Assembly (NCBI GenBank): GCA_025351325.1
Contig: JANXWE010000206.1
Coordinates: 1-35,524, forward strand
Reading direction: 5' to 3'
Source: Fimbriiglobus sp.
GTDB lineage: Bacteria; Planctomycetota; Planctomycetia; Gemmatales; Gemmataceae
DNA: 35,524 bases
Each line of letters starts with the position of its first letter. The first letter of the stretch is position 1. A program made the translations under genes and the position numbers. The notes beneath the pieces are model-generated. The model was given only the letters and a program-made list of their open reading frames with translations. It did not search any database and was not told the DNA's origin. Below are positions 10,941 to 18,539 of this stretch, piece by piece.

Positions 10941-12971
10941 TTACCGCCGCCGCACAGGCTGTAAATTGACATCGACTCCGTTCAGCGTGAAGAAGTCCGC
11001 CGCCATGAAACCCGGATTCGACGCAGGTGGTGCGACGGTCAATCCGGCAGGCGGACCCTTCGGTCGACCGGGAGGTGGGAGCAAGAAATCAACCTTGTCA
11101 TAATTCATATCCCCACGGGTGATTGAGAGCGTTCTACTTGGCGGTACGGCCTGATTGACCAACCGCACTTGGTAGTCCCCGGTTCGTACGTCATCAGCGA
11201 CGCCGAAGTGATAGAACCCGCGTGCATCCGTCGTCACGGTCGCGAGTACCAAACTGGTCGTGAGATCCCACAGTTGGACTTGAACTCCGACTGCGGGCGG
11301 ATCGAGGCGGTCGAGCCGACCGTCGCGATGGCCATCAATCGCCACTCGCCCGCTGATGTCGGCCCGGAAGAAGAAGACGTTGTTCTGCATATTCGAGGTC
11401 GTCGAGTTTCGGCGGATCAGGCTACTCAAAGTGGTAGACTCCAACTCGCGTAAGTCATTGCCGGCGAACTCACGCTGGTACCAGAACCGGTCACCTTCCC
11501 GCAGCCGGGAGAATTGATCGTTCATGATCGCCTTCACTGTCATGCCGACACTTCCGCCTCGGATGTGATCTTCGGCCAGTGCCCCGACCCAGAGATCGAT
11601 GTTGTTTACCGACCCGTACAACGCCTGCAACTTCGCCTGCGTGTCGACGTTCGAGGTGATTTGGGCGAAACTGGTCACCTTCGGCAGACCGAAGGCCACG
11701 CGGGTGGCGTTGTAGTCGGCCAACCCATGATCCCGGCCCCGTTGGATGTTCAAGCTCGCCAGATCGAGGCCGCCCGCTCCCGGTGCTCCGAACAGGAAGT
11801 TCCGGACGCTGTCCACCACATGGGTGTCCACTTCGTTCGACGGATCGGATGCCAAATACTTGATCAGCGATTCGACGCCGTGCGCCTTCACCAGACCGGG
11901 GTTGTTGAACGCTTCCGCCAGCGAAACCCCGTCGGCAATCGACTTGCCGTTGTTGTCGAGGAACTGGATATCGTCGGCGAGCAGACTGTGCCCAAATCGG
12001 AATCCTGCGGTCGCAAACTCGTTCGAAATCCCGCCGTTCACCGTCGCATTGTACCCTTGGTACCGCGGGAGATTCTGGCCAGTGAGTGCGGGCAACCACT
12101 CGTTGTACGTGATGGCTTGGATCTCCGCGGTCACCCATTCCTTGGCTCGCTGGTAGACCTGTTCGTCGGACAGTGCAGGGTTCGCTTTGGCGATGCGCTC
12201 TGCCACTCGATTGTGCTCGCGGACAAAAAGGGTTTGCAGACTGGTCAACTCTGGGTTTTCGTTCACCCGCGCGTCGCCGGCCATGAAGTTCCCGCTCGCG
12301 TCCATCGGCAGCATGTCGCCGGGACTGGTCTTCATCTTTCCGCCCTGGAACGTCCGGAGAGATGCGGCGGTGGTGGCATCCGACCCGTACACCATCGACC
12401 CATCAATCCAAGAGGTCACGGAGTTCACCTGTTGCCGTGGGTTGGCGACGGAAGTACCGGTGGCCGTATCGTAAAAAGTGCGGGTGAGCGGGATCACCTT
12501 GGTACCGGTGCTGGCGGGGTCGAACGACGGGTCGCCGGTTGGCACGGCGATGTCAAACCGCTGCCCCGTACCCGTTTTCGACAGGTCCATATCGTGGTCG
12601 ATGAACTGGCCCCAAGCGTACACCATGGCCGACATCATCCGGTCGTTCGTCCCGGTCACTCCGGTCTGATCCGACAGGGAATTGCTGATCTCACGGGCAC
12701 TCGGCCGGGTCGTTCCGGCCGGGGTGGATACCCCGTCCGCGTAGTCAGCCTGGGCGATCCGGAGGAAGTCGGTGCCGGCGGTGCCCCACGTCAAATTGGT
12801 CAGGTTGTTGCCGGATCCGTCGATGGATCGGAACCCAAAAGAGGCGGGAACTGTACGGTCTTCAAGTTGTTCATACCTTAGCCGACCACTGGTTGACCGA
12901 GTCGTGATGGTCACGGGTCGGCTGGAAAATAGACGGCTAACGAGAGCCTGGAACGGGTTCATACGCTTCAT
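10941..12971 (-). CDS. Exported animal-type heme peroxidase with a C-terminal SdrD/Cna-B-like domain
   Basis: A 676-residue protein of the animal heme peroxidase superfamily (peroxidasin/myeloperoxidase type). Key residues are visible: the distal His in AWGQFIDHDMDL (H126) with the neighbouring calcium-site Asp, the catalytic Arg in LFVREHNRVAE (R251), and the proximal His in AGFRFGHSLL (H328); NIQRGRDHGL is also typical. Residues 31-43 (LRYEQLEDRTVPA) match the LExR-type N-terminal motif seen on many planctomycete exported proteins. About 550-620 form a beta-sandwich-like domain (SGRVAIDGHRDGRLD ... TTDARGFYHFGV ... GDYQVRLV) resembling SdrD-B/Cna-B repeats. ATG 12971 has AGAGG upstream; a TTG at 12989 is less likely. 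It probably oxidises halides or phenolic substrates at the cell surface; the substrate is unknown. Two-component genes follow on the same strand. Confidence 0.9.
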   Translation of the reverse strand: MKRMNPFQALVSRLFSSRPVTITTRSTSGRLRYEQLEDRTVPASFGFRSIDGSGNNLTNLTWGTAGTDFLRIAQADYADGVSTPAGTTRPSAREISNSLSDQTGVTGTNDRMMSAMVYAWGQFIDHDMDLSKTGTGQRFDIAVPTGDPSFDPASTGTKVIPLTRTFYDTATGTSVANPRQQVNSVTSWIDGSMVYGSDATTAASLRTFQGGKMKTSPGDMLPMDASGNFMAGDARVNENPELTSLQTLFVREHNRVAERIAKANPALSDEQVYQRAKEWVTAEIQAITYNEWLPALTGQNLPRYQGYNATVNGGISNEFATAGFRFGHSLLADDIQFLDNNGKSIADGVSLAEAFNNPGLVKAHGVESLIKYLASDPSNEVDTHVVDSVRNFLFGAPGAGGLDLASLNIQRGRDHGLADYNATRVAFGLPKVTSFAQITSNVDTQAKLQALYGSVNNIDLWVGALAEDHIRGGSVGMTVKAIMNDQFSRLREGDRFWYQREFAGNDLRELESTTLSSLIRRNSTTSNMQNNVFFFRADISGRVAIDGHRDGRLDRLDPPAVGVQVQLWDLTTSLVLATVTTDARGFYHFGVADDVRTGDYQVRLVNQAVPPSRTLSITRGDMNYDKVDFLLPPPGRPKGPPAGLTVAPPASNPGFMAADFFTLNGVDVNLQPVRRR

Positions 12972-13153
12972 GGTGACGATCCTCTTCAAGACGTGACAGG
13001 AGCAGTGGCGTGTAGAAAATCATCGACACGCAACCCCCGCAGAATAATCCGCCAAGCTGAAGTGAACGTGAAGCCGACAAGGATTTTTCAGATTGGTCAA
13101 GATTTGCTGTGGGAGGTGCGGTGTTGCCAGACTTGTTTTGAATGTTTGGAGGT

Positions 13154-13642: not shown

Positions 13643-14443
13643 ATGTCATTTTCGATTTTTAATGAGAACTCCTTACGCAAGATCGCTGAATTGCTCGCCG
13701 ATGCCGCTACTCACGGCGAACTTGGCGAGATCCTGCAAGCAACTGGAATTGCCGAAAATGGTGGAACACCAAAGTGGCAGCGAATTCTTTTCGCACTCAC
13801 TTCCAAACAAAAGCAAGACCAGTGCGGAAACAATGTAGGTGGATTTATTCAGGCGATGATGGAGCCGGTTCGATATGTAAACCGCAATGCAAACTTTGAA
13901 GACCTTCGACTCAAGCTCAACAAGATTCTTTCTTTCTCGGGATTGCAGCTTGGGGAGAATGGAAAACTTCACCCCGTTAGCCATGTCGAAACCCTTAGTG
14001 AAGCAGATGAAAAAGCTGGCCAACTTAAGAGCGAACTTGTTCGTAGAAAAGTCCATCACGACGTGTTGGCATTTTGCCGCGCTGAACTTCTCGAAGAAAA
14101 CTATTTTCACGCCATACTTGAGGCGACTAAGAGTGTCGCCGATAAATTGCGTGTCCGTACAGGACTCACCAATGACGGTGCAGCACTTGTCGATTCAATA
14201 TTCAACATCACTCGTCCACTGCTCGCCCTAAGTGCCTTGACGACCGAAAGCGAAAAATCTGAGCAAAAAGGCTTTGGCAGCATGCTCAAGGGGATGTTTG
14301 GAATTTTTCGAAACCCGACCGCTCACGCACCCAAAATCCGAAAAATCTACTCCGAACAGGAAACACTTGATTTGCTAACTCTCGTTTCGTTTCTACACCG
14401 TACGATAGATGTTTCAATTCGGACACCGTTTGCTGTGGAGTAA
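13643..14443 (+). CDS. TIGR02391/Ymh-like protein with a HEPN-type R-x4-H motif
   Basis: A 266-residue soluble protein. The C-terminal half (about 110-258) resembles the TIGR02391 (Hypoth_Ymh) family: a helix with Y-F-H-A-I-L-E-A, then DGAALVDSIFN, RPLLALSAL, SEQKGFGSMLKGMFGIFRNPTAH and a last helix with LVSFLHRTID. The stretch RNPTAH fits R-x4-H (R223, H228), the signature seen in HEPN ribonuclease domains, so RNA cleavage or an abortive-infection-type role is possible. ATG 13643 has GGAG 8 bases upstream. The 110-residue N-terminus is helical and unrecognised. It overlaps the ankyrin gene behind it by 35 bases. Codon choice looks more A/T-ending than in neighbouring genes, hinting at acquired DNA. 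Function is inferred only from motif resemblance. Confidence 0.7.
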   Translation: MSFSIFNENSLRKIAELLADAATHGELGEILQATGIAENGGTPKWQRILFALTSKQKQDQCGNNVGGFIQAMMEPVRYVNRNANFEDLRLKLNKILSFSGLQLGENGKLHPVSHVETLSEADEKAGQLKSELVRRKVHHDVLAFCRAELLEENYFHAILEATKSVADKLRVRTGLTNDGAALVDSIFNITRPLLALSALTTESEKSEQKGFGSMLKGMFGIFRNPTAHAPKIRKIYSEQETLDLLTLVSFLHRTIDVSIRTPFAVE

Positions 14444-14942: not shown

Positions 14943-15320
14943 ATGACAAACCAATCATCCCCAGAAATCCACTTGTTGACCGCCGCATACACGGCCTTCA
15001 ACGCCCGCGACATTGACGCTGCACTCGCCACCATGGCCCTAGACGTGGCTTGGCCGAAAGCATTCAAAGGCGGCTGCGCCCGTGGCCATGATGAAGTCCG
15101 GGCGTACTGGACGGAACAGTGGTCCGATATCGACCCGCACGTGGAGCCGGTCTCGTTTCATCCGGAAGGTGCTGGGCACATTTTGGTGAATGTGCATCAA
15201 GTCGTACGCGACCTGTCCGGAACCGTGCTGGCCGATGTACACATCGGTCATCGTTTCACAATTGTGTCCGGGTTGATCCAAGCCATGGATGTGTGTACCC
15301 TCCTGTCGTCCGAATTCTGA
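14943..15320 (+). CDS. SnoaL/NTF2-like small protein
   Basis: A 125-residue protein with the pattern of the SnoaL-like/NTF2-like cone fold: an N-terminal helical part LLTAAYTAFNARDIDAALATM, the DVAWP strand, a G-x-x-E/D-V-R-A-Y-W segment (GHDEVRAYWTEQW) and C-terminal strands ending HRFTIVSGLIQAMDV. Members are enzymes, such as isomerases, or ligand-binding proteins, so the activity cannot be named. I chose ATG 14943; the frame opens at GTG 14895, but the added 16 residues do not look family-like. The ribosome binding site is weak. It lies 48 bases after the ankyrin gene and 26 before the DUF6624 gene. No signal peptide is seen. Confidence 0.75.
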   Translation: MTNQSSPEIHLLTAAYTAFNARDIDAALATMALDVAWPKAFKGGCARGHDEVRAYWTEQWSDIDPHVEPVSFHPEGAGHILVNVHQVVRDLSGTVLADVHIGHRFTIVSGLIQAMDVCTLLSSEF

Positions 15321-15346
15321 TTCACTCACTTCCAACGAGGTCTGGC

Positions 15347-16171
15347 ATGTTACCGCTGTTGTTGCTTGCCATTTTCGCTCCCGAACCCGATGTCAAAGAT
15401 TCCGCACTGCGCAAAGAACTCCTCGCCCGTGTTGAGACGGATCAGGCCGCGCGGACGAAGTTGATCGATGCTGGCACCGCGCCCCCGGCCGATCTGGTCA
15501 AAGCGGTCGGAGACGCGGACGACAAAAACCGAACTTGGCTCAAGGGCGTGATTGAGAAGCAAGGCTGGCCCGGCAAATCGCTCGTCGGCGAAGATGGGGC
15601 GCACGCCGCTTGGCTGTTGGTGCAGCACGCCGACGCCGACATCAAATTTCAGAAGGAGTGTCTGAATCTCCTGGAAGTCGCCGTCAAAAAGAGTGAGGCC
15701 GCAGGCACCGACTTGGCGTACCTCGCGGATCGCGTGCTCGCTGCGGAAGGGAAGAACCAACGGTACGGCACGCAACTGGAACAGAAGGACGGGAAGTTAG
15801 TCGCTCGGGCCGTGGATGACCCCGATGCGCTGGACACTCGTCGCAAGGCCATCGGCATGATGCCGATGGCGGAGTATGTCGTGTTCGCCGAAAAAATGTA
15901 CAAACTCCGGCCCGCAATCCCCGAACGTAAAGCGGAAATTGAAGCTGTCATCGTGAAAGTGGTTCCAAGCACCGAGGGAGACAAAATGGTGTTAGCGACT
16001 CTGTTCCTGAAAGGGCGAGAGGAAGGCCTGCCGATCAGAAAGACGACAGTCGTGCACAAGCAAACGGGTAAACTGTTCCCAGCCGCGACGGTGGAGGATC
16101 TGAAGGTCGATGTGAAGATCCGCGTGTGGTTACTGAACGACAAAGCGGAATCGGTGTTGATTTTACCCTAG
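15347..16171 (+). CDS. DUF6624 family protein with a C-terminal extension
   Basis: A 274-residue protein. The part from about 20 to 150 shows the DUF6624 pattern: helices with R-x-E-L-L-A-R, WPGKSLVGEDGAHAAWLLVQHAD, FQKECLNLL, LAYLADRV and the signature QRYGTQ. The start MLPLLLLAIFA may be a short signal peptide, so it may be exported. ATG 15347 has GAGG 8 bases upstream; the frame extends to 15119, but only through bases that code for the NTF2-like gene in another frame. After the family domain comes a helical stretch (IGMMPMAEYVVFAEKMYKL) and a basic, beta-rich end of about 65 residues I do not recognise. Function unknown. Confidence 0.8.
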   Translation: MLPLLLLAIFAPEPDVKDSALRKELLARVETDQAARTKLIDAGTAPPADLVKAVGDADDKNRTWLKGVIEKQGWPGKSLVGEDGAHAAWLLVQHADADIKFQKECLNLLEVAVKKSEAAGTDLAYLADRVLAAEGKNQRYGTQLEQKDGKLVARAVDDPDALDTRRKAIGMMPMAEYVVFAEKMYKLRPAIPERKAEIEAVIVKVVPSTEGDKMVLATLFLKGREEGLPIRKTTVVHKQTGKLFPAATVEDLKVDVKIRVWLLNDKAESVLILP

Positions 16172-16217: not shown

Positions 16218-16223
16218 CACCGA

Positions 16224-16297
16224 CGAGGGCGGCGGGGGTCGAACCCGTAACCTCCGGAGCGACAGTCCGGTGCTCTAACCAATTGAGCTACGCCCCC
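16224..16297 (-). tRNA. tRNA-Asp (anticodon GUC)
   Basis: The minus strand folds as a full cloverleaf. The acceptor stem GGGGGCG pairs with CGCCCTC (one G-U). The D arm is GCTC/GAGC with loop AATTGGTTA. The anticodon stem is CCGGA/TCCGG with loop CTGTCGC, giving anticodon GUC. The T loop is TTCGACC on a CGGG/CCCG stem, with an A-C mismatch at its base. The discriminator base is G, as expected for Asp. The CCA end is not encoded. Length is 74 bases. Confidence 0.96.
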
Positions 16298-16307
16298 AAC
16301 ACATTTA

Positions 16308-16538: not shown

Positions 16539-18023
16539 ATGGCGCAGACGTACACCCTTGACGAAGCCGCAAACAAACTCGGGATCTCTCCCGAGGAATT
16601 TAAGCGGAAACTCAAAGGCGATTGGAAGTCGTTGAAGTCGTTCCGCGATGGCCCGACGCTCCGATTCCGTTCCGCTGACATCGACGAACTCGCCCGGACA
16701 CTCGGCCAAGCCAGTGACCCCGGCCTCCAACCTGGTGATGCGTCAGCACTCGGCGACTCCTCCGACGAAATCGGGTTGGATGTCCCACTGACGCCCCCGC
16801 CAAAGCCTCGAAAATTGACCGCTGAGAAACCGCTTTCGTTCGATGACAGCGATGACGATATTCTCTCGCTGCCCAGCGACTCGGGTGTTTCGAAAAAGAA
16901 ACCGAAGACCAGTGGCGACAGCGACGTCCGGCTGGACAAAACACCTTCGAAAAAAGCAGCTACCGCCAAGGAACTCACTGAAGAAATCTCGCTCGATCTT
17001 TCTGGCCCGCGTAGTGGCGTTCTGAAATCTCCGAGTTCCAAGAAATTGACGGGTGGGAAGCTCAAAGCCAACGATTCTGCAAAAATCCCCGGCCCGAAAG
17101 GTCAGCCGGCCTCGGATGACAGTAGCAGTGAATTCGAGCTGAGTCTCGATTCGGATAGCGATTCTTTCGAACTGCAACTCAACACGGATAGCTCCGAAGA
17201 AGTCGAGCTGGGCGGGGCGATTCCTTCGGGAACTCGCGGTGGTCAGAGCGGCATCAACTTGCGTAAACCGGTCGACAGCGGCGTATCACTCGAAAAAGAT
17301 AAATCGGACAGCGAATCGGATCTCGATTTCGAGCTTTCCCTCGATGCACCCGGGGCGGCATCCGGACGGATTGGCATGGCGAAGTCTGGCGGGAAACGAC
17401 CGAACGATTCCGACAGCGAATTCGAACTGAGTCTGGACGACAACTCCGGCGTCACCGATGCGATCGCCGATGATATGAATTCCGAAAAAGGGGACATCTT
17501 CGAAACCGATTTCGAATTGCCCGTCGTCTCGGACGAAGAATCTGGTTCGGAAGTCGTCGCCATTGACTCGGCTGACACGGATCTGGAGAATTCGGACTTC
17601 GACATCGCCATCAGCGATGAAGATGCACCCGCCGAAGACGAAAGCGCCAGTCAAGTGTTACTGGTCGATGAAGACGATGTGGTGCCTGCGGCTCGAAAAG
17701 GGAGCAGTCGCCGAAGTACCCTGGCCAATGATGACATGATGGACGACCTGGAAACCGATGAAGGAGTATCGGCGAGTTCGGCGATGCGAAGAGCCAGCTA
17801 CGACGAAGACGATACTCCCGTACGAACTGTTGTGGCCAAGCCGGTGTCTTGGGGGCCGCTGCCAGCTGTGGTGCTGATGCCGTGCTTGATTGTGGTGCTC
17901 ATCGGCGGAATGATGAGCTTTGAAGTGCTGCGGGGGATGTGGGGCTACCAACAGTCGACCAAGACGAGTGATTCTTTGGTTCGCGGGGTGGCCGGTACGT
18001 TGGGGATCAAAGTCAGCGAGTAA
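16539..18023 (+). CDS. Membrane-tethered helix-turn-helix protein with acidic repeats
   Basis: A 494-residue protein of unusual build. Residues 3-55 (TYTLDEAANKLGISPEEFKR, then FRDGPTLRFRSADIDELAR) resemble a MerR/excisionase-type helix-turn-helix. Residues about 60-430 are highly charged, rich in Asp, Ser and Glu, and likely disordered, with a recurring FELSLD motif: EFELSLDSDSD, FELQLNTDS, DFELSLDAPG, EFELSLDDNSG and DFELPVVSD. A single hydrophobic helix (about 440-460: VVLMPCLIVVLIGGMMSF) is near the C-terminus, leaving a tail of 34 residues. The order suggests a DNA- or protein-binding domain held at the inner membrane by a long acidic linker. No cleavage or phosphorylation site can be assigned, though the acidic Ser motifs resemble kinase targets. 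The ribosome binding site is weak. Confidence 0.75.
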   Translation: MAQTYTLDEAANKLGISPEEFKRKLKGDWKSLKSFRDGPTLRFRSADIDELARTLGQASDPGLQPGDASALGDSSDEIGLDVPLTPPPKPRKLTAEKPLSFDDSDDDILSLPSDSGVSKKKPKTSGDSDVRLDKTPSKKAATAKELTEEISLDLSGPRSGVLKSPSSKKLTGGKLKANDSAKIPGPKGQPASDDSSSEFELSLDSDSDSFELQLNTDSSEEVELGGAIPSGTRGGQSGINLRKPVDSGVSLEKDKSDSESDLDFELSLDAPGAASGRIGMAKSGGKRPNDSDSEFELSLDDNSGVTDAIADDMNSEKGDIFETDFELPVVSDEESGSEVVAIDSADTDLENSDFDIAISDEDAPAEDESASQVLLVDEDDVVPAARKGSSRRSTLANDDMMDDLETDEGVSASSAMRRASYDEDDTPVRTVVAKPVSWGPLPAVVLMPCLIVVLIGGMMSFEVLRGMWGYQQSTKTSDSLVRGVAGTLGIKVSE

Positions 18024-18075: not shown

Positions 18076-18498
18076 TTAATCGTGCAACGATCCGGGGTTG
18101 CGACGGGCTTTCCGGTCAGAGTTGAGTCGCTTATCGGCGACGCGACGTCTCTTGGACGACCGGGTCGGTTTCGTGGCGAACCGCGCCTTCGGGGGAACGA
18201 GTGCCGTCCGCAGGTACTCCGTCAATTTTTGCAAACACAATTCTTTGTTCCGGCCCTGATCACGAGTCTCTTGCGAAGTAATCAGGAAGTACCCGTCGAG
18301 TGTCAGGCAACTGGGATGGGCTTTTCGCAAGCGCTCTTTCACGGTGTCCGTCACGGCCAACGTGCCCTCGAGAAACCACGAAAGCTGAGCTTTCGAGGCG
18401 ACTTTATTCACATTCTGGCCTCCGGGGCCACCGGAACGCGAGAATGTCCAACTGAATTCGTCGTCGCTGATGGCGATGGTGTCGGTGATTTGCAGCAT
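18076..18498 (-). CDS. arfB: Peptidyl-tRNA hydrolase ArfB-like ribosome rescue factor
   Basis: A 140-residue class I release-factor-like protein. The catalytic GGQ loop is in RSGGPGGQNVNKVASK (GGQ at 26-28), followed by the RF-1 fold and a basic C-terminal tail (KPTRSSKRRRVADKRLNSDRKARR). In ArfB (YaeJ) such a tail enters the empty mRNA channel of stalled ribosomes while GGQ releases the peptide. It lacks the codon-recognition domains of RF1/RF2, as expected for this family. I chose ATG 18498 because the protein then starts directly with the family-like MLQITDTIAI; a TTG at 18510 with a better AGGGA site is a real alternative that adds four residues. It converges with the HTH-membrane gene and diverges from the GT39-like gene. 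Confidence 0.92.
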   Translation of the reverse strand: MLQITDTIAISDDEFSWTFSRSGGPGGQNVNKVASKAQLSWFLEGTLAVTDTVKERLRKAHPSCLTLDGYFLITSQETRDQGRNKELCLQKLTEYLRTALVPPKARFATKPTRSSKRRRVADKRLNSDRKARRNPGSLHD

Positions 18499-18539
18499 GG
18501 CTCGGCTCAATATTCCCTAGGACGCGGTGAATGCCCGTC

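Follow-up and report, generated by a model that had tools for sequence, protein, structure and literature searches.

Results

A membrane-anchored winged-helix protein encoded at 16539-18023

The DNA analysed here (the window) is a stretch of 35,524 nucleotides from a Fimbriiglobus genome of the class Planctomycetia. The ORF lies at exactly 16539-18023 on the forward strand, the place given by an earlier note on this DNA; it starts with ATG and encodes 494 aa. The gene is isolated, flanked by a tRNA-Asp gene (16222-16298, reverse strand) and an RF-1-domain gene (18076-18510, reverse strand), which encodes a short, ribosome-rescue-like protein of 144 aa. The window also encodes a protein that combines an animal haem peroxidase domain with an SdrD B-like domain (10941-12989, reverse strand), a Hypoth_Ymh (PF09509) protein (13643-14443, forward strand) and a DUF6624 protein (15119-16171, forward strand) whose true start probably lies downstream of the listed one. 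In its own 5.1-Mb genome the gene at 16539-18023 is single-copy, and no paralogues were found there.

The product consists of a winged helix-turn-helix (wHTH) head, an acidic disordered arm, a single transmembrane (TM) helix and a short tail. AlphaFold2 prediction with 24 orthologues gave a confident wHTH at residues 1-55 (pLDDT about 90; order strand-helix-helix-strand-strand-helix), pLDDT below 50 at nearly all of residues 66-429, and two further helices, one at 441-470 and a short one at 476-488. The earlier description holds: the protein has an HTH, one C-terminal TM helix and, between them, a long disordered acidic arm in which FELSLD-type motifs number at least five. Beyond HTH_17, no Pfam domain scored above cut-off in the window protein or the orthologues tested, and no Pfam or NCBIfam model covered the arm or the TM part.

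The TM helix (residues 441-470; 17859-17948, forward strand) contains the one hydrophobic segment of the protein (441-459; mean Kyte-Doolittle 2.47) and has conserved flanks, W438-G439 and [ED]LxRxMWGY. Its conservation across the class supports membrane anchoring, as the earlier note had supposed. The N-terminus is probably cytoplasmic, and the tail (residues 471-494; 17949-18020, forward strand), which includes the short predicted helix 476-488, is probably periplasmic.

Distribution of the family

A search for loci related to the window found only one close relative, a Fimbriiglobus MAG contig. With the full-length protein, orthologues were found in 33 of 41 relatives; order names used below for relatives (Pirellulales, Gemmatales and Planctomycetales) were assigned by inference. 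A profile of the C-terminal TM region matched 280 of 298 class genomes, representing 149 of 155 genera, nearly always once per genome. A profile broadened with members of other orders matched all 40 class genomes of a phylum draw, including three missed formerly, and gave no convincing match in 352 genomes of the phylum outside the class. Eleven weak matches outside the class (E at least 0.0014) were considered as evidence of a wider phylum family and rejected: the seven inspected were unrelated membrane proteins with no HTH or arm.

Distant members, taken from 19 further families of the class, had the same order of HTH, acidic arm, TM helix and short tail. The architecture is not a peculiarity of one genome. 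Arm length varies: one member (L174) has an arm of about 950 aa with many DSDVRL/DSGISL repeats, and another (L120) one of about 1296 aa. Two genera (g71 and g90; loci L168 and L172) carry second family copies with a divergent HTH start and long DSGLSLD-type runs. No description of the family was found in the literature searched, including PMC10632474, PMC8567305 and PMC3444138. It is apparently a previously undescribed class-core family and a new form of membrane-anchored wHTH protein.

Conserved motifs in the acidic arm

The arm (residues 66-430; 16734-17828, forward strand) is a Ser-rich stretch of 365 aa with a net charge of -45 and 39% D/E/S. The pattern [ED]F[ED][LI]x[LIV] occurs in it five times (residues 198, 263, 294, 324 and 353), a count reached in 0 of 300 composition shuffles (0.0 expected). 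Alignment of 24 proteins revealed conserved motif islands within the variable arm, and about a dozen short motifs are selectively constrained; all those listed here are on the forward strand. Alignment and conservation marked TEEISLDL (147-154; 16977-17000), SFELQL (209-214; 17163-17180), LDFELSLD (262-269; 17322-17345), DIFETDFELP (319-328; 17493-17522), TDLENSDFDIAI (347-358; 17577-17612) and ESASQVLLVDED (368-379; 17640-17675). Codon pattern additionally marked SSEFELSLD (196-204; 17124-17150) and DSEFELSLDD (292-301; 17412-17441). DSDVRL (127-132; 16917-16934) is class-wide, as is the DSGIxL type represented by the double motif SGINLxxPxDSGVSLE (237-252; 17247-17294), and SGSEVVAID (335-343; 17541-17567) appears as SGSQVIALD in many other orders.

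Identity to the window protein over 23 orthologues was 62% for motif residues, 54% for the wHTH and 22% for spacers, and dN relative to the nearest orthologue was 0.043 in motifs vs 0.278 in spacers; this contrast is partly circular because the motif set was picked from the alignment itself. The FELSLD-type sites, which the earlier note had named beforehand, showed the same contrast (0.58-0.72). FELSLD-like motifs were present in 28 of 28 proteins of a Gemmatales set (which includes two f3 proteins) and in 12 of 20 others. The corresponding counts were 22/28 and 20/20 for DSGIxL-like motifs, and 23/28 and 18/20 for SDVxL-like motifs. In this wider protein set, too, motif counts were far above those of shuffles. 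The conservation expected of FELSLD therefore held within Gemmatales; other orders mostly have sister motifs instead. FELSLD is mainly a Gemmatales motif, and the DSDVRL and DSGIxL motifs span the class.

Chance origin of the motifs was ruled out by the shuffles and by conservation. An artefact of DNA-level tandem repetition was likewise ruled out, the gene having only two 2-copy 9-base repeats. The strict codon pattern for [S][DE]FEL[S]L occurs three times in the 5.1-Mb genome, twice in the window gene; the third match does not closely encode the motif.

In all arm motifs an acidic or Ser flank precedes [VIF]-x-[LIV], a pattern suggestive of short beta-strand docking peptides. Motif residues are far better conserved than spacers, as would be expected of constrained docking sites, and of the two roles proposed earlier for the repeats, docking and phosphorylation, the former gains support. 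Docking of partners by the arm is our reading of this conservation. If the arm were instead a phosphorylation platform, its acidic Ser-rich motifs would be substrates of the Ser/Thr kinases of the class and would then be bound by FHA or similar readers. Runs of Ser, Asp and Glu do flank the motifs, and PMC11032199 is a paper on how Ser/Thr kinases have expanded in the phylum. However, the fixed part of the motifs is the hydrophobic V/F/I-x-L, which fits direct docking better, and our literature search gave no phosphoproteome of a class member. We consider such a platform very unlikely.

The wHTH head has largely lost its DNA-reading face

The head (residues 1-58; 16539-16712, forward strand) has an HTH_17/MerR/Xis fold with an acidic recognition helix. 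The window copy itself scored 15.9 bits against Pfam HTH_17 (PF12728), below the curated cut-off of 27, and its match to the TIGR01764 excise model was weak (E 0.029). Eight of nine orthologues tested passed the HTH_17 cut-off (27.8-38.1 bits; the ninth scored 25.4). Membership in HTH_17 is thus secure via the orthologues and not via the window copy. The nearest structures in Foldseek were BldC on DNA, phage Xis, RacA on DNA, NmlR and CbpM; E-values were no better than 0.02, yet probability was near 1. A PDB sequence search with the HTH profile yielded designed repeats and weak matches but no true relative. The excisionase-like HTH of the earlier note is accordingly right as to fold, the wHTH lying near BldC, Xis and RacA; the Pfam and excise matches of the window copy remain weak.

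BldC contacts DNA through Lys26, Thr27, Thr29, Arg30, Lys33, His46, Arg47 and Arg48 (PMC5859096). After the BldC sequence was checked against 6ama, these contacts were mapped by by-eye alignment to wHTH positions 19, 20, 22, 23, 26, 40, 41 and 42. Among 49 orthologues, position 19 (equivalent to Lys26) is D/E in 86% and position 20 (Thr27) in 73%. Position 23, the arginine of YpG and the equivalent of Arg30, is K/R in 39% and D/E in 27%, and position 41 is Trp or Leu. Wing residues 42 and 44 are basic (K/R in 88% and 94%, respectively). The first 52 residues of the orthologues have a median net charge of 0. Ten other HTH_17 domains of the window's genome range from +2 to +8, and 29 control HTH_17 domains, most of them from relatives, have a median of +4; Thr occupies the equivalent of position 20 in 19 of 22 controls. 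The conserved recognition-helix contacts and basic surface of DNA-binding MerR, BldC and RacA wHTH domains are thus not found in this family. An acidic recognition helix in a non-basic domain, unlike the control HTH_17 domains, means that DNA-binding residues are largely absent from the orthologues, a finding that the earlier note had set beforehand as evidence against its reading. Its suggestion of DNA tethering is weakened accordingly.

The fold is kept and the DNA-reading face mostly lost; the basic wing residues may still allow some DNA affinity. CbpM has a MerR fold with no DNA-binding residues and binds the J-domain of a CbpA co-chaperone (PMC4063869), a precedent indicating that the wHTH fold can be reused for protein binding. 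The acidic recognition helix and neutral charge likewise argue for a role other than DNA binding, and the wHTH is likelier to bind proteins than to read specific DNA sequences. CbpM differs from the window protein in being soluble, in dimerizing by a parallel coiled coil and in having no arm or TM helix.

These data bear directly on a nucleoid-membrane tether of the RocS or RacA type, in which the wHTH would bind DNA, the arm would act as both flexible spacer and recruiter and the TM helix would fix the chromosome to the membrane. RocS, a chromosome partitioning protein of Streptococcus pneumoniae, likewise has an N-terminal wHTH that resembles RacA and binds DNA, a long linker and C-terminal membrane attachment (PMC11500499), and by analogy is the nearest working counterpart in order of parts. 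A tether would also accord with the BldC-DNA, Xis and RacA-DNA complexes among the top Foldseek matches, the HTH_17 scores of most orthologues, the basic wing and the status of the gene as a single-copy core gene of the class. However, beyond the acidic equivalents of Lys26 and Thr27, the scarcity of basic residues at the Arg30 equivalent, the neutral charge and the modest Foldseek E-values, an arm of net charge -45 would repel DNA, and neither a coiled coil nor a dimer interface was apparent. The linker of RocS is a coiled coil with DUF536, a domain that Pfam did not report in the window protein or the orthologues tested, whereas that of the window protein is disordered, acidic and motif-rich. 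RocS is anchored by an amphipathic helix and the window protein by a real hydrophobic TM helix. RocS binds DNA, whereas the DNA-contact residues of the window family are mostly absent. Because RocS differs in its linker, its kind of anchor and its DNA residues, we did not class the window protein as a RocS or RacA member. A tether of this kind seems to us improbable, although it is the strongest of the rival explanations.

The family head shares its fold and the HTH_17 membership of its orthologues with BldC, Xis and RacA, but differs from them in its acidic recognition helix, its neutrality and its fusion to an arm and TM helix. MerR family regulators have a coiled coil and an effector domain after the wHTH, whereas residues 66-429 of the window protein are disordered.

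Gene surroundings and the exported protein F1

In Pirellulales-type orders a conserved cluster runs from F1 (a gene for a small exported protein) through the family gene to an OmpA-family lipoprotein gene and another that is lipoprotein-like, followed by ResB and genes for cytochrome c assembly (loci L107:8288-19247 and L108:3727-19317); the cluster also includes an aroC-like gene, and MotA/ExbB-like genes are nearby. F1 has about 112 aa and the consensus VIDPxxRVMAVYHVDxxTGxIxLKSVRN; examples from the F1 alignment are L108:8570-8905 and L136:10717-11205. The member tested had no Pfam or NCBIfam match. F1 was present in 74 of 149 class genomes, upstream of the family gene in Pirellulales-type and f3 families; among the same 149 genomes it was not found in the window's genus or family or in f4, and order f2 gave one weak match only (E 0.002). 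F1 lay directly upstream of the family gene, on the same strand, in 44 of the 45 pairs compared, an arrangement which suggests that it is a periplasmic partner. It cannot be a universal one, because neither the window's family nor f4 has it. In the orders that have F1, the cluster probably ties the protein, at its membrane end, to the envelope.

HTH, linker and single TM helix in this order, together with the operon-like linkage in other orders to F1, an OmpA-type lipoprotein and ResB/CcsA-type cytochrome c assembly genes, would also suit a membrane-bound one-component regulator like CadC or ToxR, whose tail, perhaps with F1, would sense an envelope signal and whose wHTH would regulate promoters. 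However, CadC and ToxR use another HTH family, and only about 24-36 residues follow the TM helix in the window family, with no periplasmic sensor domain. Moreover, the DNA-contact residues are degenerate, the conserved arm motifs would be left without a role and the window's genus has no F1. A regulator is quite unlikely on these grounds.

Discussion

In the reading that we favour, and to which we give about an even chance, the protein is a core inner-membrane scaffold specific to the class, with a single membrane pass and an arm that collects soluble partners through multivalent binding; the DNA-membrane tether, the membrane-bound regulator and the phosphorylation platform follow in descending order of probability. 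In the scaffold, the motifs DSDVRL, DSGISL, SEFELSLD and SGSEVVAID would serve as docking peptides for one or a few soluble partners. The wHTH would be a second head, more likely protein-binding, having taken the route that CbpM took from the same fold. The periplasmic tail would contact an envelope partner, which in many orders may be the F1 encoded upstream. Overall, such a scaffold would bring cytoplasmic machinery together at the membrane, and chromosome-associated proteins may be part of it.

A bolder version, which we regard as unlikely, is a class-specific tether that organizes the nucleoid or division. Here the motif arm would stand in for the coiled-coil linker of RocS- or RacA-like proteins, and the protein would connect a DNA- or chromosome-associated partner, across the membrane, with one in the envelope.

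Planctomycetes of this class have an unusual cell organization and lack FtsZ, and to our knowledge many essential genes of the class have no known function. A class-restricted core membrane protein, nearly always single-copy and bearing strongly conserved putative docking motifs, offers a handle on this obscure machinery, with the motif arm as a direct bait for partners. As far as sequences can tell, it would also be a clear example in bacteria of short linear motifs arrayed multivalently on a membrane-anchored arm. If the tether reading were true, the protein would bear on chromosome or division organization in bacteria that divide without FtsZ.
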